Of a DNA stretch of 64,000 nucleotides, positions 112 through 44,862 are shown piece by piece. This stretch comes from Owenia fusiformis (lineage: Eukaryota; Annelida; Polychaeta; Sabellida; Oweniidae). A program made the translations under genes and the position numbers. The stretch's first letter is position 1. Each line of letters starts with the position of its first letter. The DNA lies in contig CAIIXF020000007.1 of assembly GCA_903813345.2 (NCBI GenBank), positions 36,912,759 to 36,976,758 of the forward strand. Reading direction: 5' to 3'. A model generated the notes under the pieces. That model did not search any database and was not told where the DNA came from. It saw only the letters and a list, made by a program, of their open reading frames with translations.

Positions 112-174
112 CTTATAATTTGCCATTGCCAGCTCATTATGTAGAGATTTCATCTTGGAGGAAAGATCCAGAGC
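112..174 (-). CDS. Coiled-coil exon A (21 aa, short form)
   Basis: Twenty-one codons beginning ALDLSSKMKSLHNELAMA, CACAG acceptor, AAG/GTAAAA donor, phase 0-0. It is a copy of exon C with the same shortened 3' end, and window bases 1-170 repeat 1831-2010, so exon plus element tail were duplicated together. The array continues past the left edge. Confidence 0.55.
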
Positions 175-276
175 CTGTGGTTGAACAAAATATTTTGAAT
201 AAAGGAATCAAATGAAGGTTCAAGTGGCAACATTTATTTATTTAAAAAAATCATTCTTAAATATTTCCTGACATAC

Positions 277-372
277 CTCTGTCTCTGATCTCTGTTTTTC
301 TTCTGCCAGGTTGTTATTTGCCATTGACAGCTCATCCTCTAGAGATTTCACCTTTGAAGTAAGATTCAGAGC
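277..372 (-). CDS. Coiled-coil exon B (32 aa)
   Basis: Thirty-two codons beginning ALNLTSKVKSLEDELSMA, ending in SETE before a GTATGT donor; TTTCAG acceptor, phase 0-0. It is the best preserved full-length form for comparison with short exons A and C. Confidence 0.65.
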
Positions 373-481
373 CTGAAATTCAAAAAAGATTTGAAACATA
401 GAAATCAAATGAATGTGTATGAATGTATACAAGTCTAAATGGCAAAATTTCTATATTAAAAAATAGTACCGTGGGTACTGG

Positions 482-1910
482 GCTCACATGGTGTTGCTCA
501 AAAGTGAAAGATGGCTAAAATGACAGAAAATAAAAAAACGATATATTTTTTTTGCTGATTCTTTGTTACAAAATTATTTCAAGCCACTTGCCACTATTTG
601 GACTGACTGAGAGACAGATGGACAAAGCGATGTTAAGTAAAATTTGCTGAAAAAACGGATATAATTTTTTGCCAATTATTTGTAAAAAAAATTATTTCAT
701 ACAACTACACTTTACAGTGACATGGCTTTTTGCAATGCAGGACACCTGAAATTATTTGTTACGCTAGGAAGTGGGCCAAAATTTAATAACGTGAGACAAA
801 AATGGCAACCATTTTGAAAATAGGCAAGATTTTGAAACAGGAGTCATAGGAGAGTTTTTTGTATTGATGTTGAACAAAAATAACTTGAAACTGGAATCCT
901 ATCGACATCGGTTTAAGGCAAATGGTCCAAAAGAGGATTTAGCGAGACAGACAGATTGACAAATCAATGTTAACTAAAATGGAAGAAAATAAAAAACGGA
1001 TATAATATTTTTCCGATATTTTGTAACAAAATTATTTCATACAACTACTCTCTATAGTGAAATGGCTTTTTACAATGCAGGACAGCTGAAATAATTTGTA
1101 AAGCAAGGAAATGGGCCAAAAGTGAATTTCGCGAGACAAGAATGGCGACCATTTTGAAAATAGGCGAGCTTTTGGACCAAGAGTCATAGGAGAGTTTTTT
1201 GTATTGATGTTGAACAAAATTAACTTAAAACGGGAATCCTATCGACAGAGGGTTTAAGGCCAATGGTCCAAAAGTGGATTTTGTGAGACAGATGGACAAA
1301 TCAATGTTAACTAAAATGGCTGAAAAAAAAAAAAAAATTGATATAATTTTTCGCTGATTTTTCGTAACAAAATTATTTCATACATATACTCTTTACATTG
1401 ACATGGATTTTTACAATGTAGGACACTTGAAATTATTTGTAAAGCTAGGAAATGGGTCAAAAGTGAATTTTGCGAGACAAAAATGGCGGCCATTTTGAAA
1501 ATAGGCGAGCTTTTGAACCAGGAGTCATAGGGGATTTTCGGTATTGATGTTGAACAGAAATAACTTAAAACAGGAATCCTATCGACAGAGGCTTTAAAAC
1601 GTGCCACTGTTGTTGACAGAAAAGTGGATTTCGCGAGTAAGATGGACAAACTACTACTCTTTACATAGACATGGATTTTTAAAATGTAAAACACCTGAAA
1701 TTATTTGTAAAGCTAGAGAATGGGTCAAAAGTGAATTAGGGGAGTTTTCTGTATTGATGTTGAACAGAAATAATTTAAAACAGGACCCCTATCGACAGAG
1801 GTTTTAAAGCGTGCCACTATTGTTGACGGACAGACAGAGAGACGGACGGACGGACAGACAGACAGATGGACAAGTGAGTGACTGCAAAAATTCACCATGT
1901 GAGCTAAAAA
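482..1910. repeat. 335-bp tandem repeat element with CTCACATGGTG ends
   Basis: Between exons B and C lie about 3.5 degenerate copies of a unit of roughly 335 bp, each containing AAATTATTTCATACA, GAATCCTATCGACAGAGG and a CAGATGGACAAATCAATGTTA stretch. The left end reads GCTCACATGGTG and the right end is its inverse, CACCATGTGAGC, so the array is bounded by a 12-bp inverted repeat. The right end carries ACGG/ACAG microsatellite. Partial tails or copies are seen at 1-66, 33600-33700 and 38357-39086. No coding capacity is evident. Confidence 0.6.
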
Positions 1911-1948
1911 AAACATTCTAATATATTTCTCTGCTTTTCTTCTTTTAC

Positions 1949-2011
1949 CTTATAATTTGCCATTGCCAGCTCATTATGTAGAGATTCTATCTTGGAAGAA
2001 CGATTCAGAGC
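1949..2011 (-). CDS. Coiled-coil exon C (21 aa, short form)
   Basis: Twenty-one codons beginning ALNRSSKIESLHNELAMA, TTGCAG acceptor and an AAG/GTAAAA donor, phase 0-0. In the 32-residue sisters the same position codes on through EEKQR; here the original donor region is deleted and an internal GTAAAA has apparently become the donor. The 21-residue product is three full heptads. The repeat element at 482-1910 ends close to the deletion. Confidence 0.55.
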
Positions 2012-2118
2012 CTGCAATTCAAAAAATGTAGAGATATAGAAACCAACTGAATGTTTATAGGTTCAAATGGCAACATTTATTTGTGAAAAAAAACATTTTA
2101 AAATATTTCCCTACATAC

Positions 2119-2146
2119 CCCTGCCTCTGATCTCTGATTTTCTTCT
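2119..2146 (-). pseudogene. Truncated coiled-coil exon D
   Basis: Only the last nine codons (EENQRSEAG) and a GTATGT donor remain; the 5' part of the exon and its acceptor are gone. The break joins sequence that repeats the intron flank of exon E, so it looks like an unequal exchange scar. Confidence 0.5.
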
Positions 2147-2215
2147 AAAGTTCAACTGTCAACCTTTATGTATGAAAAAAACATTTAAAAATATTCCCCT
2201 ACATTCCTTACTCAC

Positions 2216-2311
2216 CTCTGCCTCTGATCTACGTTTTTCTACCGTCAGGTTATTATTTGCCACTGCCAGCACATCTTGTAGAGATTTCACCCTGGACGAA
2301 AGATCCAGAAC
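2216..2311 (-). CDS. Coiled-coil exon E (32 aa)
   Basis: Thirty-two codons beginning VLDLSSRVKSLQDVLAVA, AAAG acceptor, GAG/GTGAGT donor, phase 0-0. A fragment of a sister exon lies directly downstream on the minus strand (2119-2146). Confidence 0.6.
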
Positions 2312-2399
2312 CTTTAGTTGAAAAAAAGATTTGAAGTAATTTAATCTATTGATTCAGATTCAGATAAAAGAAATAATTCTTGCACACTTTATTACATAC

Positions 2400-2495
2400 C
2401 TCTTCCTCTGACCTCTTCTTTTCTTCTGCCAGGTTATTCTTTGCCATTACGAGATCATCTTGCAAAGTTTTTACCTTCGAGGAATGATCTAGAAC
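2400..2495 (-). CDS. Coiled-coil exon F (32 aa)
   Basis: Thirty-two codons beginning VLDHSSKVKTLQDDLVMA, TTGCAG acceptor and GAG/GTATGT donor, phase 0-0. Hydrophobic residues V1, V8, L15 and L22 mark heptad a positions, and L11 and A18 the d positions, the clearest heptad of the array. Confidence 0.7.
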
Positions 2496-2672
2496 CTGCA
2501 ATTGAAAATTGATTCGAAATATAGAACTCAAATGGTTTTGTTGAGGCTCAAATGACAAAATTCAGACAAACAATTGAACAATGATTTGAAATATAGAAAT
2601 CAATTGAATTCGTTGAGGCTCAAATGGCAACATTTAGAAAAACAGTGTGTTCCTCAACAATTCATTAAATAC

Positions 2673-2768
2673 CTCTGCCTCTGATTTCTTCTTTTCTTCT
2701 ACCAGATTTTTATTTGTTATTTCCAACTCATCATGTAGGGTTTTCAGCTTAGAGGAAAGGGCCTCAGT
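2673..2768 (-). CDS. Coiled-coil exon G (32 aa)
   Basis: Thirty-two codons beginning TEALSSKLKTLHDELEIT, TTTACAG acceptor, phase 0-0. The donor is GAG/GTATTT, weaker than consensus but shared with other array members. The frame is open. Confidence 0.6.
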
Positions 2769-2899
2769 CTGTAAATAAAAAGTATTTTACCCAACCATGC
2801 ACATATTTATTTAGTTCTTTTCGTAAACTTTTTCACCAAATATGACTCTTGAAGATTTGTAGACTTTCTTTAAGCAGGATTCAGATACCTCTCGGATAC

Positions 2900-2995
2900 C
2901 TCTGTTCCTGAACTTTGCTGCACTTCCACTAGGTTAATATTTGGTTTTTACAGCTTAACTTGTAAGGTTTTCACCTTGGATGAAAGCTACAGAGC
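2900..2995 (-). pseudogene. Dead coiled-coil exon H
   Basis: The 96-bp unit still aligns with the array exons (SSKVKTLQ is readable), but it has in-frame TAG and TAA codons and the acceptor AG has become GG. The donor side still reads GAG/GTATCC. It is a decayed member that should be skipped in the transcript; being phase 0-0, its loss would not disturb the frame. Confidence 0.6.
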
Positions 2996-3066
2996 CCTCT
3001 ATAAAGGGAGTTTGTTCAAATGGCAAATTTAAACGATAAAAAATTCTAAAATATTAGATTAAGTAC

Positions 3067-3162
3067 CTCTGCCTCTAATTTCTGCTTTTCTTCTGTCAGC
3101 TTATTATTTGCTGCTAACAGCTCATTTTGTTGTGTTTTCAACTTGGCGGAAACATCCCGAAC
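3067..3162 (-). CDS. Coiled-coil exon I (32 aa)
   Basis: Thirty-two codons beginning VRDVSAKLKTQQNELLAA, CTGCAG acceptor, GAG/GTACTT donor, phase 0-0. It is the full-length relative of exon L. Confidence 0.65.
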
Positions 3163-3289
3163 CTGCAGTTTAATAGTAAGTTTAACTGTTGTATTTATGT
3201 ATGTATATGTGCCCCAAATGCAATTATAACAGTTACACAATTCTATAATAACAATATCATAATGCCGTTTTCTACATCTTTGAGAAAAA

Positions 3290-3590
3290 GGAGTGGTATC
3301 GATATGGAGAACTGAATCCAACAATGTTTTTTCTCTTAAATCAATCATTGAAAACATTCTGTAACAAAACACGGTATTTTATGTAATGTTGACTGATTGA
3401 CAAATTTAATGCGAAAATTATTTAGAAATATTTTATATAACTGTTTTTGTTAACATTTTTTATTTGTTTAGTGCAATTGTTTTTGCTCCTTTCTACCAAT
3501 TTTTGAGAATGAAATAAAATGTCTTTTCGAACCTGGTTGGAACAAAATAGTATTTACAACATGTTTTTAGACCTCTCAATATTATAGTTA
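3290..3590. repeat. Dispersed 300-bp repeat (copy 1 of 3)
   Basis: This stretch matches 45465-45775 nearly base for base (for example TTATTTAGAAATATTTTATA) and is present in reverse and shorter form at about 11930-12110. The right part belongs to an inverted repeat: bases 3568-3625 are repeated inverted at 3690-3756. No protein is encoded. Confidence 0.55.
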
Positions 3591-4012
3591 TACAAAGGAA
3601 TTTCTGGTTGATTTTAAAAAAAGTATTCACAAAATTAAAACAAAATCTCCCCATAATAGACAAAAATCAAGATAAACCTTTTATTTCATTAACAAGATAC
3701 TTTTTAAAATCAACCAAAATTTCCTTTGTACAATTACAATATTGTGAGACCTAAACACAAGACAAAATCGTATGGAATAAGTTGCGATAAGCTAGTTATT
3801 AAGCTTGTTATTATGGTCTTACTAGTGGTTATTATTGAGTAATGGTACAGGTATTCGATATGGTATTGCAGCTTACACTTAAGTAATGGTACACGTATCC
3901 TTGGATTTTAGGCCCGAATACCGAGGTTTATTTTTTTAATTATCGTGTATTATTATTTTGTGTAACTATTGGCATGATATGATAACCTTGTTATATTAAT
4001 ATAGCGCATAGG

Positions 4013-4252
4013 CGTAGCCATGGGGATGCGATGTGTGCGATCGCACCCCCCCCCTCCATAACCAATGAAAATAGAACCATTAGATAGAAGAAAAAAGTCT
4101 TAAAATGCTTTTTATTTGAAGCTTCTAGCTCGATTTTGAACGAAGTTGCACCAATTTTTGTAAAATTCAAAACAAATCTCCAAAAACATTTTTTATGCCA
4201 CGATCGCACCCCCCGCCCCCCTCCCCCCGACTGAAAGCTGGCTACGCCACTG
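4013..4252. mobile_element. Short inverted-repeat element with GGCGTAGCCA ends
   Basis: Left end ATAGGCGTAGCCATGG and right end GGCTACGCCACTGT are inverted copies over about 10 bp; poly-C/poly-G tracts with GCGATCGCACC lie just inside both ends. This is the layout of a non-autonomous DNA transposon. A partial copy of the left end is at 8936-8985. No clean target duplication is visible. Confidence 0.5.
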
Positions 4253-6155: not shown

Positions 6156-6293
6156 CATTCCGACCAAAATTTGTATACCTGTAATTGGGGGGGGGCGATG
6201 TTACATCACATAACTACAACGTTCATATAGAAATATACAATAAGCATGTCCGTATAAAAGCTAAAATTATAAAAACTCATTTCAAAGTCAGTA

Positions 6294-12259: not shown

Positions 12260-12334
12260 CTTAGTCTTAGATTTTCTCTCAACATCTTTCAGCTTGTTTT
12301 TTGACTCCAACAGTTCCTGCTTAAGCTCCTGAAC
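12260..12334 (-). CDS. Coiled-coil exon J (25 aa)
   Basis: Twenty-five codons beginning VQELKQELLESKNKLKDV, TATAG acceptor, AAG/GTATTT donor, phase 0-0. It is a near copy of exon M. It is the last array exon before a 9.1-kb intron that leads to exon I. Confidence 0.6.
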
Positions 12335-12664: not shown

Positions 12665-12760
12665 CTCAGTCTTAGCTTTTATTTCTGCATCTTTCTTATT
12701 TTTACTTGACTCTGCCAGTTTCCGTTGAAGGGATTTGATCTTCAAAGAAAGCTCCTTAAC
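12665..12760 (-). CDS. Coiled-coil exon K (32 aa)
   Basis: Thirty-two codons beginning VKELSLKIKSLQRKLAES, TTTTAG acceptor, GAG/GTATTT donor, phase 0-0. It is Lys-rich and more diverged than the other 32-residue exons; no close sister copy is seen in the window. Confidence 0.6.
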
Positions 12761-13126: not shown

Positions 13127-13201
13127 CTTAGTCTTAGATTTCAGCTCAACATCTTTCAGCTTGTTTTTTGACTCCAAAAGTTCCTGCTTAAGCGCTTGGA
13201 C
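13127..13201 (-). CDS. Coiled-coil exon M (25 aa)
   Basis: Twenty-five codons beginning VQALKQELLESKNKLKDV, with a TATAG acceptor and AAG/GTATTT donor, phase 0-0. It is a duplicate of exon J; the intron sequence to its right (about 13230-13390) matches that of J (12350-12515) closely, including the stretch GATACGATCCAGCGTGG. Confidence 0.6.
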
Positions 13202-13695: not shown

Positions 13696-13791
13696 CTCTG
13701 CTTCTGATTTTAGTTCGTCTTCCACAAGCCTATCATGCGCCATTGACAGGTCTTCCTTGAGTGTGTTCACTTTTGATGAAAGATCTTGAGC
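13696..13791 (-). CDS. Coiled-coil exon N (32 aa)
   Basis: Thirty-two codons beginning AQDLSSKVNTLKEDLSMA, CTAG acceptor, GAG/GTATTT donor, phase 0-0. It is the sister of exon O and differs from it at only a few codons. The frame is fully open in both copies, which suggests that selection keeps both. Confidence 0.65.
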
Positions 13792-15113: not shown

Positions 15114-15209
15114 CTCTGCTTCTGATTTTAGTTCTTCTTCCACAAGCCTATCATGCGCCATTGACAGGTCTTCTTGGAGTGTGTTTACTTTTGATGAAAA
15201 ATCTTGAGC
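15114..15209 (-). CDS. Coiled-coil exon O (32 aa)
   Basis: Thirty-two codons, CTAG acceptor and GAG/GTATTT donor, phase 0-0; it begins AQDFSSKVNTLQEDLSMA. It is nearly identical to exon N, and the flanks of both are alike over about 1 kb, so the two arose by a recent tandem duplication. A SINE ends just left of this exon's donor side and is missing at exon N. Confidence 0.65.
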
Positions 15210-15737: not shown

Positions 15738-15800
15738 CTTTTTATTTGCTAGCTCCAGTGATTGCTTCGCTTCTTCAAGTTCATTCCTCAGTTTGTGAAT
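15738..15800 (-). CDS. Coiled-coil exon P (21 aa)
   Basis: Twenty-one codons between a TTTTTTAG acceptor and an AAG/GTACAT donor, phase 0-0. The peptide IHKLRNELEEAKQSLELANK has leucines in heptad spacing. It is the first array exon seen after the nucleotidyltransferase exon; a Tc1-like element (15845-18104) fills most of the intron between them. Confidence 0.6.
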
Positions 15801-18345: not shown

Positions 18346-20463
18346 CTCTGCTAATGCTGGATGTTTATTCAAGAGGTCTTCTTTTTTTGCTGTCTCCCCG
18401 CCCTCCTCATACACTGACAGCAAAAGTGTTAACGAATTGATGTCTTGAGGCGATTCCTCAACACTTGTCTCTAGTACTTCAATAGCTTCTCCAATGTCAC
18501 CCGTTCGTTGGCGGGAGACACTATATGTATTCATGATGTCTGGGTCTTTACTTTCAACGACTTTAGTTTTTAACTTGTCCAGGAAAGGCTTGCTTATATT
18601 GTCATCCTCGATGTACATATTGCACAGAATATGCAAAATCAGTTGTGTTGTCTCAGAGCTCTCATATGTTTTGTTTGCTTTCATCAAGTGTTCCTTGGCC
18701 TTTTCTTGATTTTGCATCAGCATGTAGGCGATTGCATTATTCAGGTCAGATGGATCATATAATGATGTTTGTCCAATTTTTTCCACCGTGTCTCTTGATT
18801 TCTCTTCCTCAATTGCATAGACAAGTGGTATAGCGGTTTGGTAGTAGCGCAAAATGAGATCTGTACTGAACGTTGTTTGTTCAATGCCATCTTTGAGAAG
18901 TAGCTTTGGTAACAGTTGGCCTTTCTTTTCGTCTACTTGACCATTGTTTTCTGTGTAACATCTTAGTCGTAGTTCTGCAGCGTTGGTTAGAATCATTTTC
19001 AAGTTATGTACGTTCTTCCTATCCAACCCTTCTAGTTTTATAATGTCCCATATGCAATCTGCATTACTGGTCATTAAGTGGAGTAAGTTGTTTATTACAA
19101 CACTTGGCAACCGGTAAATTTCTTTCTTTACATGGAGTGATTTTTTCTCTATCAGTTTTTTCTCGTATTTACCGTCATACATTTTCTTTATACAGGAGTG
19201 TTCGACCAAGTCTTCATTGAGTTGATTTTTAATGAGCCTTAGAATTATTTTTCGACGATTCTCATTTTCCTTGAATTTTTTTTTCAAATGTTCCTCAACA
19301 GATTCGTCTCCATATAGTGTCGTAAAGTCCCCTTTGAAGAAAAATAGTCCCCTTTTTAGATCACTTTCTTCCATTTCACAATAGTTCGCTATGAATGCGG
19401 CCTTTGTATTTGTCAATCGGAAGCCATCATATTGAGGACAGTTGTAGTATGGTGTTTTGTTGGCATTTGGCATCAGACCATCAAATGAGATTCCCTGTTT
19501 TGTTTTTACATAATGTCGTAAGTCAAAGTACCAGTCCTTTGTTTTGTCATTGCGGTCAACGTCATTAAGTGACGGTACTGACATTGCTGGAAGGATGGTT
19601 TCACCAAATGCTAGTAACTTCAGGTGAAGGATCATAACCATCTTGTTTATGGTTTCTCTGTATTCAGGCTGCATTTCTAAATCATTAATATTCTGCACTA
19701 CAGCAAATTCTACATCGGAGAAAGGTGTTGTTTCTTTTCTTGAGAATGACCCAAACGCGATTAAGGCAAAGTCCTTATCGTGGAAATTGAGGGGATCAAT
19801 ACTCTGCTGTACCAGACTCGATATGAATTTTTTCATTTCCTGAAAGATCCACTTAAAAATCTCTCCAATTTGTCTTATTCTTTCTGCTTCACGTTCTAGT
19901 CTTTCGTCATCTGTGATCCCAGCTTTATAACAGTAACATTCCTTGCTCTTATCAAGCCTTAGGATTCTATCCCTCAGTTCATTTCGTATTGCTTTAAGTT
20001 TTTCTTTATTCTTTCTCTCATCTTCAGAGTATCCTTCTGGCATTTCTTTCCCGACGTAACTTCTGAAGAAAAGTTTAAGAGCAGATGTTTTTGCATCATT
20101 ATATTTTAATAACTCACTTGATAGTTCGTCTCCACACTGCACTATTCCTGTTTCATAAATGCTGATTGCTTTCACATATCCCATCGGTTTATTTTCGATT
20201 TCAGCAATGTCTCTATGAAGATTACCAAGTTGCCTCAACAGCTGCACATGTTCCAGTCTATTTTTTTGCCATTCATCTTCAGAAACCTCCCCTGGATTCG
20301 TTTGTAAATTCGTGTTTATTGATGGAATCTTTTTAAGCGATTTTGTTATTTCAAGTTCTTCTCTTTTGAGTTGGTCGAGCTTTAGTTTCTTGTCTGGATA
20401 TTGTTCCCTTAACATTCTGATGTATGTTTGTAATTGCTCGATGGCAGCGACATTTTGGGACAC
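18346..20463 (-). CDS. GlnD/DUF294-type nucleotidyltransferase with TPR-like C-terminus (706-aa exon)
   Basis: One exon of 2118 bp, TTGCAG acceptor and GAG/GTGAGC donor, phase 0 at both ends. Residues 1-220 are helical and charged. Residues 230-256 hold the polymerase-beta superfamily signature: G238-S239, then D250 and E252 in PFSDVEF, the pattern of GlnD and DUF294 nucleotidyltransferases. A further motif GISFDGLMP near 324-332 may give the third carboxylate. The last 130 residues contain TPR-like helices (RTGDIGEAIEVLETSVEESP). The catalytic residues look intact, so an active nucleotidyl transfer is possible; the substrate is unknown. GlnD uridylylates PII in bacteria, but animals lack that system. 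No start codon lies in the exon, which fits an internal exon. Confidence 0.85.
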
Positions 20464-24193: not shown

Positions 24194-24381
24194 AAATGTA
24201 TTTATTCACGGTTGAATCACGAAGTATGAATTAGTGTATAAATAATTTCTGTACGGTCAAGGTGATTTGAAATGATCTAATAATAGAACGAGGTCATGTA
24301 TGAGTGGATTGTTTTCTTGGGTATTGAAAGGTTTGTAGGCGTCATCTCGGTTCTAAACGCCAAAGCGGGTGGACTAAACTT
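24194..24381 (+). repeat. DIRS split direct repeat A1
   Basis: 188 bp identical by eye to 28964-29151. It ends six bases before the gag start codon. Confidence 0.9.
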
Positions 24382-24386
24382 CCATC

Positions 24387-25100
24387 ATGGAACAGAACAT
24401 AGAACTCATGAATTATTTTGATCAAAAATTCTCTGACCTAAACGAGAAGATGGAGAATATGAAGAGAAAGTTACCAGACGAAGAAGAAAGCATCTTAGCA
24501 GCAGCAAAAAGACAGCATAAAGAACCAGAATATGAATTCAAGAGAACGGGACACAAAGAGCAGTTCAAGGTCAACAAAGAGATTCTAGAACAATTACACG
24601 TGGCTAACGATGCTCTGAAGTCTGGAAATGCAGAATTGGCGACCGAAAAGGTCGCCAAAGGTATGTCAATTTTGAATAATAGAAATAAACTTCTCATTTT
24701 GGCAGACAGCAGTGAAGCTGGTTGGGGTGCTGTAGACGAGTACCGTAAATATTCAATAGCTAGCGATAGTGATGATGACAAAAAATTAAAAAGAGCTCAA
24801 TCTTTTGCCATTCGTACTGTTAACAGAAAACGTGTTCAAAAAAGGGCACAAAATTTAAGAAAAAACAATAGTTTCAGTGGTCAACAAAACCGGTTCCAAG
24901 GCAACAGCAACGCAGGGTGCGGTAACAGCGGCCGTAACGGCTGTAACGGCAACACCGGATGGGCCCAGAAACAACAGCAGTTCAAGTCGAATACCACACG
25001 AGGACCAAGGCCGACTGACTCATGTTTTGCCTGCGGCGGCAGGGGGCACTGGAGTCGAGAGTGCACGGCGGCAACAGGGGGAAATGCAGGAGGGCAGTAA
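24387..25100 (+). CDS. gag: DIRS element gag-like protein (237 aa)
   Basis: The protein has a charged, helical N-terminus, a Glu/Lys-rich middle with LILADSSEAGWGAVDEY, a Gly/Asn/Gln-rich linker and a CCHC zinc knuckle C-x2-C-x4-H-x4-C (CFACGGRGHWSREC) near residues 213-226. Such knuckles bind RNA in particle proteins. The ATG directly follows repeat A1. The end overlaps the reverse transcriptase frame by up to 224 bp. Confidence 0.8.
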   Translation: MEQNIELMNYFDQKFSDLNEKMENMKRKLPDEEESILAAAKRQHKEPEYEFKRTGHKEQFKVNKEILEQLHVANDALKSGNAELATEKVAKGMSILNNRNKLLILADSSEAGWGAVDEYRKYSIASDSDDDKKLKRAQSFAIRTVNRKRVQKRAQNLRKNNSFSGQQNRFQGNSNAGCGNSGRNGCNGNTGWAQKQQQFKSNTTRGPRPTDSCFACGGRGHWSRECTAATGGNAGGQ

Positions 25101-26670
25101 CACAGAAAAGATAAGTAAAATTGTAAATACATGTGGTATTGATAATGTGTCTCAAAAGGTGAAAGGTAATCTCAGAAGGCATGTCAAATTTTGGACAGAA
25201 ATAGGTGCAAATAGCACTATTATAGATATAGTAGAAAATGGCTATGTTATACCATTAAAATCAGAACCAGGTGTCGTAGATCTTAAGAATAACAAATCTG
25301 CTATAGAAAATGGTGATTTCGTGACAAAAGAAATTCAAAATTTGATAGAAGGTGGTTTTGTTTGCGAAGTAGAACAAAAGCCAAGGGTGATTAATCCGCT
25401 CACTGTAGCAATAAATGCAAAGGGCAAAAAACGCTTAGTTTTGGATCTTAGACACGTTAATCCACATGTGTGGATCGAAAAAATGAAATATGAAGACATT
25501 AACACAGCTATGCCTTATTTCAAAAAAGGAGGTCACATGAGCACATTTGATATTAAAAGTGGCTATCACCATTTGGATATCAGGCAAAATCAGTGGCAAT
25601 ATTTAGGTTTCAAGTGGCAATTTGAAAACGGGCAAATCAAGTATTTCTGCTTCAAGGTTTTACCGTTTGGAATAAAAACGGGAGGTTTGGTTTTTTCAAA
25701 GGTCGTACGGGCTCTAGTAAAATATTGGAGGTCAAACAATGTAAGAATTGTTACGTATTTAGATGATGGGATTATTATTGGCAACAATAGGCAAGAAACA
25801 AAGTTACAGGCAATGTTCGTAAGGGCAACGCTAAAAAGGGCAGGTTTTATAGAAAATGTGCAAAAGTCTCAGTGGGAACCAGCTCAAAAAGTAGAATGGT
25901 TAGGCTTTGTAATAGACCTCACAAAATTTGAAATTCGCATACCAGAATCGAAAGTCGACAATTATATCCAATGCTTAGAAAATATTCTGCAACGTAAAGT
26001 GATAGTTACTGCTAGACGGTTGGCTTCGTTTGTAGGCAAAATAAATTCTGCATGTCCAGCTTTGGGTAATGTCACAAAACTCATGACAAAATATTCACAC
26101 GCACAAATAAATCAGAGTTGCGCTTGGGATCAGGTAGTGGTTCTCAACGGGCATAGCATTTCAGAGCTAAATTACTGGGTGAACAATTTAAAAAACTTGA
26201 ATGGTAAGGCGATAGTAGATACTCCGAAGCTAAGGAAGGTTGTGTTTTCAGACGCAAGTGATAGTGGTTGTGCAGGCTATGTAGTCGAAGCGGATCAGGA
26301 AATATGTTATAAAACATGGACGAGTTCAGAGGTTGGTCAGAGTTCCACTTGGAGAGAATTAAAAGGTGTACATGTGGTACTTCAGTCTTTAATGAACAAA
26401 CTTGAGGGTCAAGCTATCAAGTGGTTCACAGATAACAAAAACATTGTCAGTATAGTCTCAAATGGAAGCATGAAAGAGCATTTGCAGGCTTTGGCGATAG
26501 ATATTTTCACTTTGTGTGCAAGGTTCCATGTGGATTTAAACATTCAGTGGATTCCTAGGTCTTTAAATGAGAAGGCAGATTATTACAGCAAAATAGTAGA
26601 TTTTGACGATTGGAGTGTTTCAAAAAGCACTTTTAGAGATCTCGATCAGGCATGGGGCCTCATTCGATAG
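24877..26670 (+). CDS. DIRS element reverse transcriptase - RNase H
   Basis: Open frame +1 to gag. Reverse transcriptase motifs: LVLDLRHVNPHV, FDIKSGYHHLDI, LPFGIKTGGLVFSK and the catalytic YLDDG at 25756-25770. RNase H motifs follow: FSDASDSG, WRELKGVH, WFTDNKN and NEKADYYSK. No ATG lies near the frame start; translation probably comes by frameshift from gag or by an internal start near the gag stop. The conserved C-terminal part lies in another frame from about 26655, where one G appears to be missing from a G run, so this copy or its assembly has a 1-bp frameshift. Confidence 0.85.
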   Translation: MVNKTGSKATATQGAVTAAVTAVTATPDGPRNNSSSSRIPHEDQGRLTHVLPAAAGGTGVESARRQQGEMQEGSNTEKISKIVNTCGIDNVSQKVKGNLRRHVKFWTEIGANSTIIDIVENGYVIPLKSEPGVVDLKNNKSAIENGDFVTKEIQNLIEGGFVCEVEQKPRVINPLTVAINAKGKKRLVLDLRHVNPHVWIEKMKYEDINTAMPYFKKGGHMSTFDIKSGYHHLDIRQNQWQYLGFKWQFENGQIKYFCFKVLPFGIKTGGLVFSKVVRALVKYWRSNNVRIVTYLDDGIIIGNNRQETKLQAMFVRATLKRAGFIENVQKSQWEPAQKVEWLGFVIDLTKFEIRIPESKVDNYIQCLENILQRKVIVTARRLASFVGKINSACPALGNVTKLMTKYSHAQINQSCAWDQVVVLNGHSISELNYWVNNLKNLNGKAIVDTPKLRKVVFSDASDSGCAGYVVEADQEICYKTWTSSEVGQSSTWRELKGVHVVLQSLMNKLEGQAIKWFTDNKNIVSIVSNGSMKEHLQALAIDIFTLCARFHVDLNIQWIPRSLNEKADYYSKIVDFDDWSVSKSTFRDLDQAWGLIR

Positions 26671-27038
26671 ATAGATTTGCATCATGTGATAACAAACAAG
26701 TGACAAGGTTCAATTCAAAGTTCTGGAACCCGGGTACAGAGGCCGTAGACGCCTTTACACAAAATTGGTCTTGTGAAAACAACTGGTGTGTGCCACCTTT
26801 GTATTTAGTGCCAAACGTCATAGCGTACATGAAACAGCAGGGTGCTGAGGGAACTTTAATGGTACCCAGGTGGCAATCAGCGTCATTTTGGCCATTGATA
26901 CATAACGGCAATGTGTTCAAGTACTTTGTGAAAGATATTGTAGAATACTCAAATGCAAAATACGTCTTAAACAAGTGTTCACAGAACAACAGTGTCTTCA
27001 CAAGGGACAATTTCAATAAGGTACAATGTTGGCATTAA
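26652..27038 (+). CDS. Displaced C-terminal part of the DIRS polymerase (frame 3)
   Basis: The text GPHSIDRFASCDNKQVTRF, then NWCVPPLYLVPNVI and TLMVPRWQSASFWP, is typical of what follows RNase H in DIRS-like polymerases. It continues the previous frame after a one-base shift. Near 27020 the sequence AATAAG/GTACAA resembles a splice donor and TTTTTTCCAG/GTCC at about 27824 an acceptor, so the 800-bp gap to the recombinase may be an intron. Confidence 0.7.
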   Translation: MGPHSIDRFASCDNKQVTRFNSKFWNPGTEAVDAFTQNWSCENNWCVPPLYLVPNVIAYMKQQGAEGTLMVPRWQSASFWPLIHNGNVFKYFVKDIVEYSNAKYVLNKCSQNNSVFTRDNFNKVQCWH

Positions 27039-27369
27039 AAATCAGATTTTAAATAAAAAATGTATAAAATGAATATAAGTAGATCAGACCAATAAAACAT
27101 TACATTCAAGTAGAAAAAACCAAGAGCAAATACGATGTTCATATCATATATCACAGTTTATACGTATAGCTTCAGTGTAACTTAATTAAAATGTTTGCAT
27201 GTGATTTGTTTATACTTTGTTCATGTTTTTAGACACAGAAAGGTGTGGTCTCATATGCGAAGTAATGAAGGACATCATAAGCATAAAATCTTTTAATTTA
27301 TCGTTAGGTCTAAATGCATGTCAGGGTTCTGGCAAGTGGCAATCTAGCTTGATGAACATGATCTCAAGT

Positions 27370-27680
27370 AACGCGACGTCGAAGTGACGACGATTGTTAA
27401 GTGTGAATCGTAGCTTGATATTGACGATATCAAGTAAGACCGTGGTGACGACGATACCACTAGTTTGATGACGATGATATCAAACGGAGCCGTGGTGACG
27501 ACGATACCACTAGAGCATGTGTTATTATTTGCATGATTTTATTGTAAGGAAATCAAACAGAGTCCTGGTGACGATGATACCACTATGGTGACGATGATAC
27601 CAATATGGCAATGTTATTGCAGATGTTGATGAGGGCGACATCAAAGAGAAACGTGGTAACGATCATGGATGATACATTGT
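27370..27680 (+). repeat. GACGATACCA-rich degenerate repeat inside the DIRS element
   Basis: Between polymerase and recombinase the motif TGGTGACGACGATACCACTA and shorter versions recur about six times. No frame stays open. It could be an RNA packaging or recombination signal, or a simple repeat; the sequence does not decide. Confidence 0.5.
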
Positions 27681-27841
27681 GGCAACTGATATGGAATATA
27701 TTTTGTTTTAGCATAATGAAAAGCAGTGTTGACCTGAACAATATAGGTTTTTATATGTTTTGTACATTTTAGGCGTATTATTTAAACACGGTCTAATCGT
27801 TTCGCGTTCATTACTTTTTTCCAGGTCCGTTTAAAAGACTG

Positions 27842-28837
27842 ATGAGCGATACATTGGTTAAAAGTGAAAAACTTAAGGAACCAAAACAGAAACTACCAAC
27901 AGTTTTATTAAAATCCAAGGAGCCCAAAACAATTGAGGCTTATAATTACGCTTACAAAAAGTGGGAGAACTGGGCACAACAATTCGAAGAAGTGACCTGC
28001 TTGCCAGCAAATCCAGTTTACATAGCATTATATTTGGTGAGCATGATACAACAAAGCAACACGGCGAGTCCTTTGGTTAACGTCGTCTACGCCATTGCTG
28101 CGGCACATGACTTTGCAAATCTGAGCAATCCATGTAATAGCAACCTTGTTAAAATGACTTTAGAATCGGCAAAGAGAATTTTAGCCAAACCAAAAACCAA
28201 GAAATTACCAATCACGCCAGAAATGTTGGCCCTTATCGTAGACAGATTCGCACCTAACATCACTGAAACATGTTTGAAAGGTTTGAGGTTGGCTACATTT
28301 GTCTTGCTGGGTTATTCAGGCTTCTTTAGGTTTGATGAGCTGTCTAGTATACAATTAGGAGATATTATGTTCTACGATACTCACATGAGCATCTTTCTGG
28401 AGCATTCTAAGACAGACGTGTACAGAGATGGTAGAAATTGTATTATTGCAAGAACAGGTACAAAACTTTGTCCAGTCAGTTTGCTCAGTAGATATTTGAC
28501 ACAGGCTAACGTTGTCCAACACGATCATTACATATTCAGGGCTCTTACCTTTTTAAAATCAAAAAACGAGTATGTGTTAAGGGCAGATAACAAGAAGTTA
28601 AGTTATACAAGGTGTCGTGAAATTCTCTTGGAATGTCTCAAAGAGTTGGGTTATAATGAAAAATTGTACTCTTTACACTCAATGAGAGCTGGAGCCAGTA
28701 CTGCCGCAGCGAATCAAGGAGTGAGTGACAGGTTGTTTAAACGGCACGGAAGGTGGAAGTCAGAAACCGCAAAAGATGGTTATATCGAAGATAGCATCAA
28801 AGATTTGCTTTCTGTAACTCAAAACATTGGATTGTAG
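27842..28837 (+). CDS. DIRS element tyrosine recombinase (331 aa)
   Basis: The C-terminal half has the tyrosine recombinase residues in order: R163 in GFFRFDEL, K190 in the beta hairpin (HSKTD), H279-x2-R282 in LHSMRAGA, H302 in RHGRW and the nucleophile Y314 in DGYIED. The N-terminal half resembles a core-binding domain. It would insert the circular cDNA, replacing the integrase of LTR elements. The frame is intact with a normal ATG and a TAG stop just before repeat B1. Confidence 0.9.
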   Translation: MSDTLVKSEKLKEPKQKLPTVLLKSKEPKTIEAYNYAYKKWENWAQQFEEVTCLPANPVYIALYLVSMIQQSNTASPLVNVVYAIAAAHDFANLSNPCNSNLVKMTLESAKRILAKPKTKKLPITPEMLALIVDRFAPNITETCLKGLRLATFVLLGYSGFFRFDELSSIQLGDIMFYDTHMSIFLEHSKTDVYRDGRNCIIARTGTKLCPVSLLSRYLTQANVVQHDHYIFRALTFLKSKNEYVLRADNKKLSYTRCREILLECLKELGYNEKLYSLHSMRAGASTAAANQGVSDRLFKRHGRWKSETAKDGYIEDSIKDLLSVTQNIGL

Positions 28838-32959: not shown

Positions 32960-33142
32960 CCTCTTTTCTTCCTCCTTCCTTCTTGCCTCCTCTGCCCTTT
33001 GTGTTTCTTCTTCTGCCCTCTTTCTTAGTTCTTCCACTCTTTTTCTTTCTGTCTCGAAATGTTTTTTATCATCTTTTGATTGGTCGCTCAGGCTCTGTAG
33101 TAACTGGGATACCTCTTCATCCAAAGTTGTCAGAGAAAGGAA
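32960..33142 (-). CDS. Coiled-coil exon, 61 aa, phase 0-0
   Basis: A CAG acceptor (TCCTTTCAG) and a GTAATT donor border 61 open codons. The sequence begins FLSLTTLDEEVSQLLQSL and then becomes extremely charged (repeated EEARRKEEEKR-type Glu/Arg/Lys runs), a strong coiled coil. It sits between the RING exon and the nucleotidyltransferase exon on the same strand, and reading phase is kept on both sides. In TRIM-like proteins a coil after the RING drives dimer formation, which is the expected role here. The donor lies at the edge of a foldback element (32807-32943), so that element inserted almost at the splice site. Confidence 0.7.
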
Positions 33143-34850: not shown

Positions 34851-34852
34851 TA

Positions 34853-39284: not shown

Positions 39285-39625
39285 ATTTTCTCAAGGTCAT
39301 GTATGATGGCATGTAAAGCAAACCTAATTTCTATCTGAATATCTACTTGTGGAAGGACACAATCAGAAAAAGCAGCATCACAAAACAATACAATTGCAAC
39401 TGCCATTTGTAGCTAGAACTTGTTTTTCTCAAGGTTAACTTACGATAATGTAGAGTCTTATTTTTATCTGATTATATCCCCAGGAGGGTCACCACTCACC
39501 ATCCAAAGAGGTGGCATCACAAGATAAAACAATTGCAACTCATGTCTAGAACTTGATTTTCTCAAGGTCAATATATGTTAGTGTATCAAGAATCTAACTA
39601 TTATCTGAATATCGACCTGGGGAGA
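39285..39625. repeat. Degenerate tandem repeat, unit about 140 bp
   Basis: About 2.5 copies share TTTTCTCAAGGT, TATCTGAATATC and ACAATTGCAACT in the same order. Confidence 0.5.
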
Positions 39626-42033
39626 TATGGAGCAAAAGCCAAATGATTCGAAGTTCATTTAGATTGTCTAAATACGTTTGGATAGGCACGTTCTCATGTT
39701 CCTAGTTTTTTACTTTCACAATATTCTGAATTTGAAGAAACTTTAAGAAGTGTTAAACAAAAATTTGAAGTTGTCTTTAACGCATATTTCCTACAAAAAT
39801 TGGCTGCGTTTTCTTCATGAATTTAAGAGAAAAACGTTTTCCTAAAATATTTGATGTGCAAATTGTAGTGGAAGGTTTAGAATGATAACTAGTATCTTGT
39901 ATTCATTTTTAAAAATAAAATTGTCCCCTCTTTCTCGCGCGTTAGTTTTCAACTTCATTAATCCGACTTATGTGCCGTTGCTTGTTAGCTGTTAAAGTAT
40001 TTGTGTATTACCTAATTATATCCATTGGCGTCGGAAGGGGGAGGGAGTTGGGGCGACCGCCCCCCCCCCCGTTTCCCAGATTTTTTTTCTTCCCAGATTC
40101 CAAACCGATCCTAGAATTGAAAGCTCTAGAGCTTATTAAAGTCAACGTGTAATAATGACAAAAATGATTCTATGTCAGTATATAGTAGTCTTGTCAATTT
40201 ACAGCAAAAAACACTGTTCGATTAAATGCAGATTTGACGGTTAAAGTCGGTTAACTGACAAAAAGAATTACTGATTTTAGAAGGTTTTTGAACAAATAAA
40301 ATAAAAATATTATCGGAATAATGTGAAAATGATCAAATGATCTAGCTGCTGATTGGTTAATTATGAGGGACTTGTTTTCAGCGCCGAAAATGTCAAGCTA
40401 GTGTCATTGATTGCGCTTATATTGAGACTCTGACATCTGTGACATCTGATTTCTGTGCGTCTGTGAGTGTTACGTCTGGATTCATTTATACACTTTAGAT
40501 GTTGAATTCATGTATTTCTAATCATTTGAAAGGTTTGAAGCATCGTTATAAGCACATTATATCTTGTGATATATCATTCGGGTTATATTACACTATACTT
40601 AAGAGAAGTTGCATTGTCTTTATGTCACCAACCTGCCTAAAACAATCTACTACAGGGTTCAGCTTGACTAACAATATGTTTTAAGTACTTTTTTGAATTT
40701 GGGTAATGTAATTTTGTATGCATAAAGTCACGTCGTCAACAGTCCAGTATGTGAACCGCACGTCGCAAGTTATTTCGATGAACATGTTATCAACTGTCAT
40801 TTTTTAATTTTAGATATATTTGTGACAACAACCTTGAACGGTTTTCAATTGTTTTCTGATAGATTCATTCATTTAAAACACATTCCTGGTGAATTTGAAG
40901 GTAGTGGTTATCAAAATTAATTCAAAACAATTACAGCCAGTCGTCACATTATTCACTAAGTTTTGATTTACTAAATCTTCGAAAATGAGCTTGAAATATA
41001 AATAAAGGACCCGTGCCTCATAGTGTACATACAAGAACTTAGAAATTTATTGAAAATGGTAAAATGGAATTCCAGAATTATTTTTATGCAATTTGAATCT
41101 TTATTAAGTATATTTTCAACAAATAACAAAAATAGTCTGAAAATGTGATAAACACGTGTTTTTAACACATGTCATGTTATTTGTACCATCAGGTACATTT
41201 GGTAAATGGTTCTTTATTATTTTCATGTTGCGATACTCGTTTTGGTCAGTCATATACAATTTGACTAAAAAATACTTAGCGGTATTCCTTTAATATGCCA
41301 GAAAATATGTATTCTTCAAAAATACCAGCACGTATTCAACGATCGTGACGTCACAACTAAAATCCCCGGGAAATTGTTCACGTAAGCATCAATTTATTTT
41401 CGTTACAATTTAACCTCCGGATTGCAAGTAAAAATACTATTACAATTTTTGTAATTTGTAGACTTGAGAAGTCACCTAAAGTAATGTTTTACGGACTTTT
41501 ACATGAAAAGTCCAAATCTGATTTTTATCCATTGCTTAACATACTCTGACGGAAATCTTGAATTTCAACAGTATATCGGCAAACGTTTGAAAGTATGTTG
41601 AAAGTACGGATAATGGGGATGTAATAAAACAAATATTGAATGATGTGATCTTTGGATATCAGTTATTTTTCCATGATGGTAAGATTCCCTGCAATCTGAT
41701 TGGTTCATGTGACTTAAATATATTCTGTATTTACACGCACCATCCACTCATCAATGTTGGATAAAGAGTGAAAATGACGTCAGCGTTGGAATACGGTCCA
41801 GTATCCCAACGTCCACGATTTTCATTCAGGATATGACAATTACTGAAAAAACAATGGCGATCAGTTTACACCAATGCGTGCCTATCTGCATTTTGCTAGA
41901 TATCTGATTTAAATATCAGGAAATGATATTGTGATCATCACGATTTATAATTTTAGCATACTTGTGTAAATATAATAAATCAATTTGAAGCACCAACATT
42001 GCTTCATGAACTAGTAAAAATTCAATTTGGCAG
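39626..42033. other. Intron sequence, no gene seen
   Basis: A poly-C element end is at 40020-40075. The block at 41245-41375 (CTAAAAAATACTTAGCG, TCCCCGGG) is related to 33215-33320. Nothing else is supported. Confidence 0.35.
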
Positions 42034-42186
42034 ACGAAAGTTGAAAAAACGTTTCACTACACTGCACTTCCAGCTGATGAAATTGAAGAGAAAATAAAGA
42101 ACATGAAACGTCCCGTAAAACACAATAAAAGCAAAAAGCAAGACCGAAAAGATATTGAAGGAATGTCGATCAAAAACATCGATGCG
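42034..42186 (+). CDS. Orphan 51-aa exon, phase 0-0
   Basis: TTTGGCAG acceptor and GCG/GTGAGA donor bound 51 open codons: a basic, Lys-rich peptide beginning TKVEKTFHYTALPADEIEEK and containing KRPVKHNKSKKQDRK. It lies on the strand opposite to the RING gene, in its first intron. No partner exon was found and the family is not recognised. It could be a retained piece of an old gene or element. Confidence 0.35.
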
Positions 42187-42362
42187 GTGAGAAGGTTGAT
42201 TTATTTATCCAGTCCCAAGCCAAGGATATTGACTTGATTTCAGGAGAGTTTGAGTAATTATGGAAAAAACGTTAATTTATGATTTTACGTGAAATACAGA
42301 AAATATTCTCCCCTTGAACGTCTAGTGCATTTCACTCGTGAAATACAGACCTTCTCGGGAAG

Positions 42363-43513
42363 CAGGGTATTTCCTAAGCGCCGGACCGTCGGACCAGACC
42401 GACCAATTTTCGTACGGTCCTAAAAAAATTGAATATTACCGGACCGCGTGACCGATGGCTTAACTGGACAGTGTAAACATACTTTCCAAGTCATGTCCGA
42501 CGATTGGAAGCTGACTTTTCCAAAGTATAAACTAATGACAACTCTGATTAATGCAAAAAATTAAATAAATGTTTCAAATTTTGCAAATACATTTTGTTTT
42601 CAAGACAAGAGATAAATTTAGGATCGTTGTTTTGTAATATCGGCAACAGCGTGAAGGTCACGCACAAGGGGAATCCCCTATAATCTTTGACATACATTTA
42701 TTCTCTTGACTTTTGTCATTAATTTCGTAAACGTAGGACACCTGAGGATTCCTAGGGGAACTCAAACTCTGCTTAAAATCATATTAACGATCATGACCAT
42801 AAACATTTAATAATTGCTATAGTTTACCTGTTCAAATACACCAAATCATGTAAATTATAAAGAAATTTCATTTTCGATTTTCACTTCCGGTTTATCTGCA
42901 AGGATAATTTGCACAATATAACTCAAATACTGATGGTTATGTGTCAGTTTCACTTCATACACATCTTCTCCAAGGTAGTTGACTTCATCTTCTTTTACTT
43001 TGCTTATGTTTTGAGTTGAATTAATTAGCGTTATCATGTTCATGTATTTAGGATTCCTCAATTGGTGATGAGTTGAGATTTTTTAAACATTTTTTCTAAA
43101 AATGTTTTCAACCAAGCGCAACGCTCCATCTAGGTGCAAACTAGGCGGAGTTATGAGTTACATGTACGCTTGGTACAGTGCCAAGTGAAAGGGGTCTTGG
43201 GAGATCATAGTAGTACCTATATGGCTCTGGTTCTGATTTAGAGTAGAATGCCAGTGGCTTATAGTATTGATCAATAGGGTTGTGATGCTGATCTTGAAAT
43301 CTTACAACATAGGCTTATCCGATGTTTCAAAATTTTAGAGGCATTAGAAAATCCCTGATAAATTTATTTACGGTCTGATTGATGTTGATACGGACCGGAC
43401 ATGTTTTAAAAGTACAGGTCCGTATGTCCGGCAAACGATGGTACGGACCAGAGATAATCTGAAATCACAGTTCCGTATGTCCGGCAAGCAATTTTTCCTT
43501 AGGAAATACCCTG
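42363..43513. mobile_element. hAT-like element with 8-bp target duplication
   Basis: Ends CAGGGTATTTCCTAAG and its inverse are flanked by a perfect 8-bp direct repeat TCGGGAAG (42355-42362 and 43514-43521). Eight-base duplications and C-A-ended inverted repeats fit the hAT group. Subterminal CGGACC/GGTCCG motifs repeat near both ends, as hAT transposases often need. Inside, a short minus-strand frame (42855-43061, ending VKIENEISL) is not recognised as transposase, so the element is non-autonomous. Confidence 0.8.
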
Positions 43514-44670
43514 TCGGGAAGAATATTTTCTGTATTTCACTCGATCATTGAATGACTTGATAATTTAAAACATTTCTGTGAAGGATGTATTCAACTCAGC
43601 CTCTGGGCACCGTCGAATACACCCTCGGAAATATATACAGATATTCGTCTCCACATCATTCAATAATTGTATGATATTCCTTTTCCCTATATAAGGAAAT
43701 CTGACCTGTCAAAAAATGTCTTCATCCTTTTTCACAAGTCAGAAGGTGATGAAATAAGGGAATGGCAAATAACTACTTTAAATATATTTTTAGGGTATTT
43801 TCTTTACTTATTTCCAATGATATACAGGGTGTTCCATATGCTTCTATAAACTGTGAAAAGTCAATGTTACACCCGGTGTATATTCGTAGACAGTACCCCG
43901 GGTCACAAAGCTCAACCGTATGTATGAAATGAAGAGTGGACTTGAACATTGGAATGGACGATCCTGTAATATTTTGGTGAGTTTTTATGTTCGAATCGTA
44001 ATATAGACCTCAAATTAGGTGTATTATCGTCGAAAACACCCCCTAGGACTAGGCAGAAAAGCTTTCGAAAGAGATTTTAATTTCTTAAAGAGATCGAGTC
44101 GTCTAGACAACCAAAAGAACAACCAACTGTCAGAATTGAACGCAATAAGTGGAGAACAGAATACAGTGTTCTTTGGGGATTTATCTATATTGTAACCCAT
44201 AAGAAGATATAAATATGGCTTCTCTAAGGCAAAATAATCTGAAGGAAAAAGCCAATCAGACTGGAACAAATTTGAGCGGGCTTTTTAAATTTGAATTTGA
44301 ATTTCTATTGATGTAAATGGAAATTCATGGCTAGGAATAATCATCGAATTGATACTGTTAACGAATTAATTTAAGCCTTAGAATTGATAAGTTGATAAAC
44401 AAACTTGTTTTACATCTAATAACACGAAAAAATAGGGGGTTACTCTTATTGTGTTTTTAGGAGACCCGCTATCTATTATACAAAATGTAGTACTTGATGA
44501 GAGAGTAGATTAAACTCATATCTTATTAATGACTAAAGATATTTTATGTCATTGAAAACACTCATTTGGTGATAAAAAGTGAGAAAGAAAATAAAAATAA
44601 TCAGGACAGGTGACACCAAAGTCTTGTTTAACACATTGAAATTATTGATTGATTTTCTTTTGGTACTCAC

Positions 44671-44862
44671 CTTGAACTGCTCCACCCCTTCGGGAACACG
44701 ACTTTCCTTTTTGCATTTTGGACAGTGGATACGTTTATTCGACGATTTATTTTCGCTGATTAGCCTTTGTAGGCATCCAAAACAGCAAATGTGCTGGCAA
44801 TCTAATTGTTTTGATTCTTTCGCTGTATCATTACATGACGCACAAATATTTTCTTCTTCCAT
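44671..44862 (-). CDS. RING-HC finger exon, probable first coding exon (64 aa)
   Basis: The exon opens with ATG and ends at a GTGAGT donor in phase 0. It encodes a RING-HC finger with ligands C7, C10, C22, H24, C27, C30, C47 and C50, in the spacing C-x2-C-x11-C-x-H-x2-C-x2-C-x16-C-x2-C. The residues after the last cysteine pair (RVPEGVEQF) resemble the end of TRIM-family RINGs. RING domains recruit a ubiquitin-loaded E2, so an E3 ligase role is likely from the family. No other coding exon is evident just upstream, and an in-frame ATG starts immediately before the finger, so this start was chosen. Linking it to the coil exon at 32960-33142 rests on order, strand and phase. Confidence 0.85.

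Follow-up and report, generated by a model that had tools for sequence, protein, structure and literature searches.

A clustered gene family of Owenia fusiformis with RING, GlnD-like nucleotidyltransferase and NHL exons in a recurrent order, and a hypervariable NHL face

Ubiquitin ligases with fast-evolving recognition domains are central to animal antiviral defence, and in the finTRIM and TRIM5-type ligases it is the B30.2 domain that evolves fast. NHL propellers are known as binders of RNA or protein in developmental regulators, and GlnD carries a nucleotidyltransferase signature with the motif D-x-D. Here we describe a locus of the annelid Owenia fusiformis where a RING exon, a GlnD-like nucleotidyltransferase exon and an NHL exon lie in order on one strand. 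It was found in a stretch of 64,000 nucleotides (C7:36912759-36976758 of a 498-Mb assembly, C7 being contig CAIIXF020000007.1), referred to below as the window; all copies compared are from this one genome. The face of the NHL propeller differs between copies and the enzyme parts are conserved, so that the locus looks like one long gene for a diversified recognition protein with the RING and the nucleotidyltransferase as constant effectors, an interpretation that we consider probable.

No description of a RING-nucleotidyltransferase-NHL gene, or of hypervariable NHL faces, was found in the open-licence literature (titles and the starts of abstracts, few search terms), and records of this architecture with automatically assigned names may exist elsewhere. 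GlnD and DUF294 are named in bacteria in the portion of PMC3710099 consulted, which has nothing on this layout. The layout belongs to a family of at least 11 loci and is not a lone odd gene.

Exon order, recurrence and conserved enzyme parts

A RING exon, a coil exon, an exon of exactly 706 codons between AG and GT, and 96-nt coil exons follow one another on the minus strand with junctions of phase 0. This arrangement had been proposed from the sequence of the window, and it is confirmed in full now that coordinates and splice sites have been read. The gene as drawn covers about 61 kb (C7:36896483-36957620) and continues 16 kb past the left edge of the window. Its features are as follows (window positions, except for the last).

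44671..44862, minus strand: RING exon with start codon, C3HC4, 64 codons, donor GTGAGT (frame read and Pfam)
32960..33142, minus strand: coil exon FLSLTTLDEEVSQLL..., 61 codons, phase 0 (found between RING and nucleotidyltransferase in paralogs)
18346..20463, minus strand: 706-codon exon with helical region, DUF294/GlnD-like nucleotidyltransferase and TPR-like end (Pfam, NCBIfam, alignment A1)
19708..19752, minus strand: signature G238-S239 ... D250-x-E252 (invariant in alignment A1)
15738..15800, minus strand: short coil exon IHKLRNELEEAKQSLELANKK (acceptor and donor read; its counterpart in C7_3705 is 70% alike)
15114..15209, minus strand: 96-nt coil exon (unit scan)
13696..13791, minus strand: 96-nt coil exon (unit scan)
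13127..13201, minus strand: 75-nt coil exon VQALKQELLESKNKLKDVELKSKTK (by eye)
12665..12760, minus strand: 96-nt coil exon (unit scan)
12260..12334, minus strand: 75-nt coil exon VQELKQELLESKNKLKDVERKSKTK (by eye)
3067..3162, minus strand: 96-nt coil exon (unit scan)
2673..2768, minus strand: 96-nt coil exon (unit scan)
2400..2495, minus strand: 96-nt coil exon (unit scan)
2216..2311, minus strand: 96-nt coil exon (unit scan)
277..372, minus strand: 96-nt coil exon, the leftmost inside the window (unit scan)
C7:36896483-36897280, minus strand: terminal NHL exon, outside the window (acceptor, 266 codons, stop)

The 706-codon exon has 22 strong copies in the genome, itself included, many of them on C7 and C9. 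We defined as the close set the 12 nearest nucleotidyltransferase copies, which share at least 54% identity over the exon (the copy on C381 is partial, at 77%). A RING exon lies upstream, on the same strand and within 40 kb, at 8 of these 12, and an NHL exon lies downstream, on the same strand and within 60 kb, at 11, the NHL exon not being found at C381, where the contig ends. Taking 141 RING-like and 145 NHL-like matches for the 498 Mb, the probability of such recurrence by chance is 5e-16 for the RING and 3e-22 for the NHL. These figures assume an even scatter; given the clustering of the families and the common descent of the copies, they exclude accident only, and not neighbouring genes that were inherited together.

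The junctions recur together with the exons. In all 11 complete close copies (C381 is cut by the contig end), AG and GT border the nucleotidyltransferase exon at one and the same phase. Each of the 12 NHL exons is preceded by an in-phase AG, and an in-frame GT ends the RING exon in 8 of 8 copies, with GTGAGT in 7 of them. Exons end without a stop, the donors directly continuing open frames. The order RING, coil, nucleotidyltransferase was seen in all four paralogs read over that part, and a coil exon also lies upstream of the nucleotidyltransferase in a fifth, C9_2822. Eight loci, spread over two chromosomes and an unplaced contig and with identities as low as 54%, thus share order, strand, phase and splice signals. 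The result is a clustered multigene family, with at least 11 loci carrying nucleotidyltransferase and NHL, and 8 of these also the RING.

Two loci carry only some of the exons of the family. At C9_2822 (C9:28211000-28223280; L050, L018) the RING is seemingly reduced to a remnant while the coil, nucleotidyltransferase and NHL exons are retained. The region C7:39381992-39452931 holds a family NHL exon on the plus strand and two family RING exons on the minus strand, with no close nucleotidyltransferase among the matches listed nearby, and is perhaps a rearranged locus.

Each unit of the coil array consists of AG, 32 codons (96 nt) and GT, the GTx codon that follows being the splice donor. Eight intact units lie inside the window; the array extends leftward beyond it to a last unit near window position -5.9 kb, and no unit occurs on the other strand over this interval. 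Arrays were found in 4 of 5 genes, with 22 of 26 (window gene), 16 of 17, 22 of 25 and 12 of 14 units intact, and no unit was seen in the part of C9_3013 examined. The coil exons, as read by eye, are charged and helical-looking.

The RING exon matches Pfam zf-C3HC4 (E 3.5e-6), and all eight C3HC4 zinc ligands were seen by eye in the 8 copies compared. Pfam zf-B_box has no match in the RING or coil exon at E 0.1. A B-box-type pattern, a weaker instrument than the profile, is absent from the interval between RING and coil in 5 of 5 genes; as a control it finds one in the TRIM-NHL gene L068, which may have two zinc boxes.

The original prediction of a nucleotidyltransferase signature of the form GS...D-x-E with TPR-like helices is supported by the profile searches. 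Residues 193-287 of the 706-codon exon match DUF294 (PF03445) at 22.5 bits, above the curated cut-off of 21, and the end of the exon gives weak Pfam matches to TPR. NCBIfam GlnD models match the same part (best E 1.8e-6, the others weaker), far under their full-length cut-offs; the GlnD equivalog scores 26.2 bits against a cut-off of 1299, with the nucleotidyltransferase part alone matching. The exon has no Pfam match to an HD or ACT domain, and none to Mab21 or OAS1_C at E 0.1 or at E 1, although the nucleotidyltransferase superfold itself may be shared with cGAS/OAS-like receptors. The signature motif reads GSFSRKETTPFSDVEF, and G238, S239, R242, E244, D250 and E252 are invariant in all 16 rows of alignment A1, with identity to the window copy down to 41%. 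This alignment holds 16 of the 22 strong copies (C7_3705, C29, C3_392 and those at C9:0.29, C4:11.57 and C4:11.67 Mb are outside it). A PDB profile search with A1 returned mostly TPR and other helical-repeat chains, with kanamycin nucleotidyltransferase at the motif (E 0.74), and PADLOC gave PDC-S09 over the motif at 1.1e-4.

Both enzyme exons are under purifying selection. By the Nei-Gojobori method, with the window copy as reference, the nucleotidyltransferase has a dN/dS of 0.15-0.38 over the 10 comparisons that allow dS to be computed; the eleventh, with C9_18, is saturated. For the RING the range is 0.20-0.35 over 5 comparisons, C9_18 and C413 having been excluded because of partial alignment. 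One stop occurs in the counted nucleotidyltransferase exon of C29. A translation start at the 706-codon exon appears unlikely, because no in-frame ATG precedes it in its open frame and because its first Met is not conserved: residue 17 is missing as Met in 4 of the 10 closest A1 rows, being V in L019, L in L018, S in L002 and T in L006. This also speaks against a start codon directly upstream of the exon, which had been named as a refuting finding. The proposal of one gene with both a RING and a GlnD-like domain has therefore gained recurrence, conserved splice sites and purifying selection in its favour, and we infer from these that the exons are spliced into one mRNA.

DUF294 has at least 53 matches in the genome. 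Five more distant frames all combine DUF294 with TPR and show no RING among the families listed, which were the best 25 families in each of two of the lists; two of the frames end at a locus boundary. These long open frames (L044-L048, on C10, C6, C2, C8 and C3) contain many TPRs, which we take to be kinesin-light-chain-like, and were read over up to 2129 aa. Upstream of one of them (L047:1173-1511, plus strand) lies a short frame with an NPGP motif, presumably 2A-like.

Within the window, the intron between coil and nucleotidyltransferase exons carries a retrotransposon on the plus strand (24378-28837) with RVT_1 (7e-16, reverse transcriptase/RNase H), Phage_integrase (3e-6, tyrosine recombinase) and, by eye, a zinc-knuckle-like open reading frame; we assume this gene set to be DIRS-like. 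There is also a tandem repeat at 53167-53659 (81-bp unit, 6.1 copies, 99% alike) and, at 59366-61309 on the minus strand, a 647-aa open frame with Thr/Ser-rich repeats, probably a secreted or surface protein, with no Pfam match at E 1.

The terminal NHL propeller and its face

The NHL exon was found by comparing the window gene with the copy C7_3705 (C7:37.05 Mb), as a conserved open exon 3' of the array. It lies at window position -15.5 to -16.3 kb, comprises 266 codons closed by a stop codon and is the last exon found. It matches Pfam NHL at 5e-15, and its best PDB matches are TRIM71 (E 2.4e-42), then Thin, TRIM2/3 and Brat. The 12 best-scoring matches in the genome are 58-100% identical, and 11 of them are those downstream of close nucleotidyltransferase copies; near the remaining one, at C7:39.38 Mb, no nucleotidyltransferase copy is listed. 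All 12 exons are free of stops. The thirteenth match, on C8, is a fragment with two stops, and a cluster of NHL fragments at C8:2234272-2243896, 50-80% identical and most with stops, is an apparent graveyard of NHL exons.

Over the whole NHL exon, the C7 and C29 copies give dN/dS of 1.1-1.7 against the window copy at a dS of 0.05-0.09. The nucleotidyltransferase exons of the same genes have a dS of 0.29-0.54, far higher, which makes the 3' part of the gene either younger or homogenised. Intron segments near the NHL exon that align between the window gene and C7_3705 share 85-94% identity.

In every blade the amino-acid changes concentrate in the two upper loops. With C9_1839 and C413 set aside as more distant, 10 copies remain, and in these four or more residues occur at 27 of the 48 face sites but at 4 of the other 218, the loop windows having been picked after viewing the alignment. 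A second set of sites comes from LIN41 and is therefore independent of this alignment. In the part of PMC5908797 used here, ten RNA-contact residues of the DrLIN41 NHL domain are given, most of them identical between species; mapped by hand via the 6fpt alignment (chain numbering plus 415), they correspond within a blade to positions -4 and -2 ahead of the inner strand and to +1 and +2 following VAD, which over six blades makes 24 sites. In the same 10 copies, 21 of these 24 contact-equivalent sites are hypervariable against 10 of 242 others, so that conserved RNA contacts of the LIN41/Brat type are not found in this NHL. Moved along the sequence in either direction, by one residue up to eight, the set never has more than 9 hypervariable sites out of 24. 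The human TRIM-NHL binding site is likewise placed at the top opening, with diversity there between family members, in the portion of PMC9634614 consulted.

The NHL face evolves beyond neutrality. Its codons have a dN/dS of 2.26 among seven C7/C29 copies, 3.44 among three C9 copies and 1.45 over all 12, and in the C7 group the face dN of 0.42 exceeds the dS of its own codons by a factor of 2.3 and that of the remaining codons by a factor of about 8. Silent change is raised in face codons too, but far below their amino-acid change: fourfold sites differ at 0.074 in the face vs 0.038 in other codons in the C7 group, and at 4/41 vs 8/305 in the C9 group. The pair C7_3705/C7_3680 illustrates how recent the changes can be, as the nucleotidyltransferase exons differ by a dN of 0.002 and a dS of 0.019 and yet 18 of the 24 face residues differ. 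Outside the 24 sites, the NHL exons of this pair have a dS of 0.050; they are older or faster than the nucleotidyltransferase, and an exchange of NHL exons between genes may thus be possible.

Two possible sources of the face diversity were considered and are not supported. Diversity-generating retroelements alter adenines, yet adenine makes up 187 of the 645 nucleotide columns that are invariant in the seven NHL copies of C7 and C29. Short-tract shuffling finds no support among these copies, few as seven are, since adjacent face residues match independently (correlation -0.04, null 0.00 +/- 0.06).

Variable faces are also seen elsewhere in the genome. We compared 16 other NHL exons, chosen as close neighbours from 133 further matches. 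In 22 pairs that differ by 10-18% elsewhere (four of these pairs are repeats, C11_2075 and C11_2134 being identical), 50-91% of contact-equivalent sites differ, 3.7 to 6.3 times more, and in twelve wider pairs (35-37% elsewhere) these sites differ 2.2 to 2.8 times more. The two closest pairs are without the effect, one being identical and the other differing at 2/23 face sites vs 7/234 of the rest. Three single-exon members compared are ordinary TRIM-NHL proteins with RING and B-box; such genes stand in pairs or in a row at C2:6.42-6.45 Mb, C10:29.89 Mb and C11:22.02 Mb (L052-L059, L068-L070), with hypervariable NHL faces. At L040/L041 (L040 is C7:37424900-37434399) and L042 (C11:1741600-1751400), EGF, PAN-like and TSP1 frames lie upstream of NHL exons, one frame having a hydrophobic stretch (by eye) and EGF, the other a PAN-like match (20.6 bits, under the cut-off of 21.4) and TSP1. 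From order and strand, these frames would be spliced to the NHL exons, and the genome perhaps encodes extracellular NHL receptors with a variable face.

Proposed function and alternative explanations

We propose that one gene encodes a RING, a coil, a GlnD-like nucleotidyltransferase with a TPR-like end, a coiled-coil rod of 32-residue exons and a six-bladed NHL propeller. The upper face of the propeller would be the recognition part, selected to differ between copies and presumably directed at a foreign or variable target, and the rod would set the reach and oligomerise. The RING would add ubiquitin and the nucleotidyltransferase would put AMP or UMP onto protein, both acting on the target captured by the face or on the protein itself as a signal. 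The zinc ligands and the signature are intact, and ubiquitin ligation may be coupled to nucleotide transfer, as originally suggested.

Several observations weigh against this proposal. Long stretches were read for five genes, of which only two, the window gene and C7_3705, are covered without interruption from RING to NHL. The RING was not found at four of the 12 close loci: at C29 the contig begins at the nucleotidyltransferase exon; at C7_3616 and C381, 10 kb upstream read in each gave no usable RING match; and C9_2822 has a coil exon and a 16-residue RING remnant (E 0.009). The ten further copies of the 706-codon exon (43-56% identity) have no RING-like or NHL-like match within 300 kb among the matches listed, and the layout is therefore confined to one clade. 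The nucleotidyltransferase fold rests on weak profile matches and the motif, its third catalytic acid was not identified, and an AlphaFold2 model of residues 190-520, made from a single sequence without alignment, is uninformative (pLDDT 34.5). As to the face, the register of the blades is an assignment made by eye, and blades 1-3 lack the landmark proline. The remainder of the NHL exon has a dN/dS of 0.77 in the C7 group and 0.91 in the C9 group (0.44 over all 12), and the lower turns, with very few changes, 0.26 and 1.31 (0.39 over all 12), so that among recent copies the NHL body appears mildly constrained at most, and not clearly so. The role in innate immunity that was originally suggested, finally, gains indirect support from the hypervariable NHL propeller beyond the window, and from its variability only.

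Some of these points could indicate that what looks like one gene is a row of three, with a small RING gene next to a DUF294-TPR gene and an NHL gene. The RING exon begins with an ATG of its own, the coil exon sits between long introns (11.5 and 12.5 kb in the window copy, as measured between exon ends), the RING is not found at a third of the close loci, and both the ten distant copies and the five DUF294-TPR frames do without the partners as far as the listed matches and families go. We nevertheless consider separate genes very improbable: order, strand, phase and splice signals are shared by 8 loci to 54% identity, donors directly follow open frames, exon ends lack a stop, and the first Met of the 706-codon exon is not conserved. 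Even less probable is an origin of the face differences in relaxed constraint, pseudogenes or alignment error. Broken NHL fragments do exist (C8:2.23-2.24 Mb), the rest of the exon is near a dN/dS of 1 among recent copies, and fourfold differences are higher in the face, but no stop occurs in the 12 NHL exons, and relaxation does not lift dN above dS, where the face dN is 2.3 times its own dS; alignment error is countered by the 24 sites selected independently of the alignment.

We also find it rather unlikely that the nucleotidyltransferase is catalytically dead, or a nucleotide-sensing scaffold, with only the RING acting as in a TRIM-NHL ligase. The D-x-E where GlnD has D-x-D, the lack of HD and ACT among the Pfam matches and the weak profile scores would fit such a scaffold; the six invariant residues in 16 of 16 rows, down to 41% identity, and the purifying selection on the exon speak against it. 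A developmental RNA regulator with a variable face, in which the NHL binds RNA like LIN41/Brat and the copies differ by RNA target, is possible but less likely. It is favoured by the PDB matches, headed by TRIM71, and by the equivalence of the variable sites to DrLIN41 RNA contacts. However, variability within the domain peaks at these very sites, even between very recent duplicates, whereas those of LIN41 are mostly identical between species according to the part of PMC5908797 cited above, and similar variable propellers lie downstream of EGF, TSP1 and PAN-like exons, perhaps outside cells.

Returning to the diversified recognition protein, if it is correct, NHL is a diversified recognition module in Owenia fusiformis, and one NHL class pairs a bacterial-type nucleotidyltransferase with a ligase, so that recognition could yield two different covalent marks. 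Near-identical effector parts with different faces provide a test case in which targets can be compared. A bolder extension, which we put forward as speculation and ourselves rather doubt, is that NHL serves as a hypervariable receptor domain comparable to immunoglobulin or LRR, placed on cytosolic TRIM, RING-nucleotidyltransferase and membrane-bound or secreted EGF/TSP1/PAN chassis; its face would be renewed by targeted germline or somatic diversification, faster than by duplication and ordinary selection, and the RING-nucleotidyltransferase class would give ubiquitin and nucleotide marking.

Comparison with known systems

GlnD (protein-PII uridylyltransferase) and DUF294 proteins share with the 706-codon exon the GS...D-x-[DE] signature and the surrounding profile. 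The exon differs in having D-x-E and no HD or ACT match, and in its place within an animal RING-NHL protein; by length and accessory domains it falls outside the GlnD equivalog, and by the Mab21 and OAS1_C profiles outside the cGAS/OAS-like receptors.

The TRIM-NHL ligases (TRIM2, TRIM3, TRIM71/LIN41, Brat and Thin; class VII TRIMs) resemble the gene in their N-terminal RING and C-terminal NHL propeller, with a coil that has a putative counterpart in the gene, and the single-exon TRIM-NHL genes of this genome likewise have a variable face. Of the features of the TRIM family, the C3HC4 RING and the C-terminal NHL of class VII are present and a B-box was not found; a nucleotidyltransferase with a TPR-like end and an exon-array rod are inserted, and the face is hypervariable. 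The B-box thus places the gene outside the TRIM family by features, while in its presumed mode of action it resembles a TRIM ligase whose recognition end evolves. With the finTRIM and TRIM5-type ligases, the family has in common an E3 chassis, a diversifying C-terminal recognition domain and a clustered, expanded set of genes; here the NHL propeller replaces B30.2, and a second enzyme is part of the protein.

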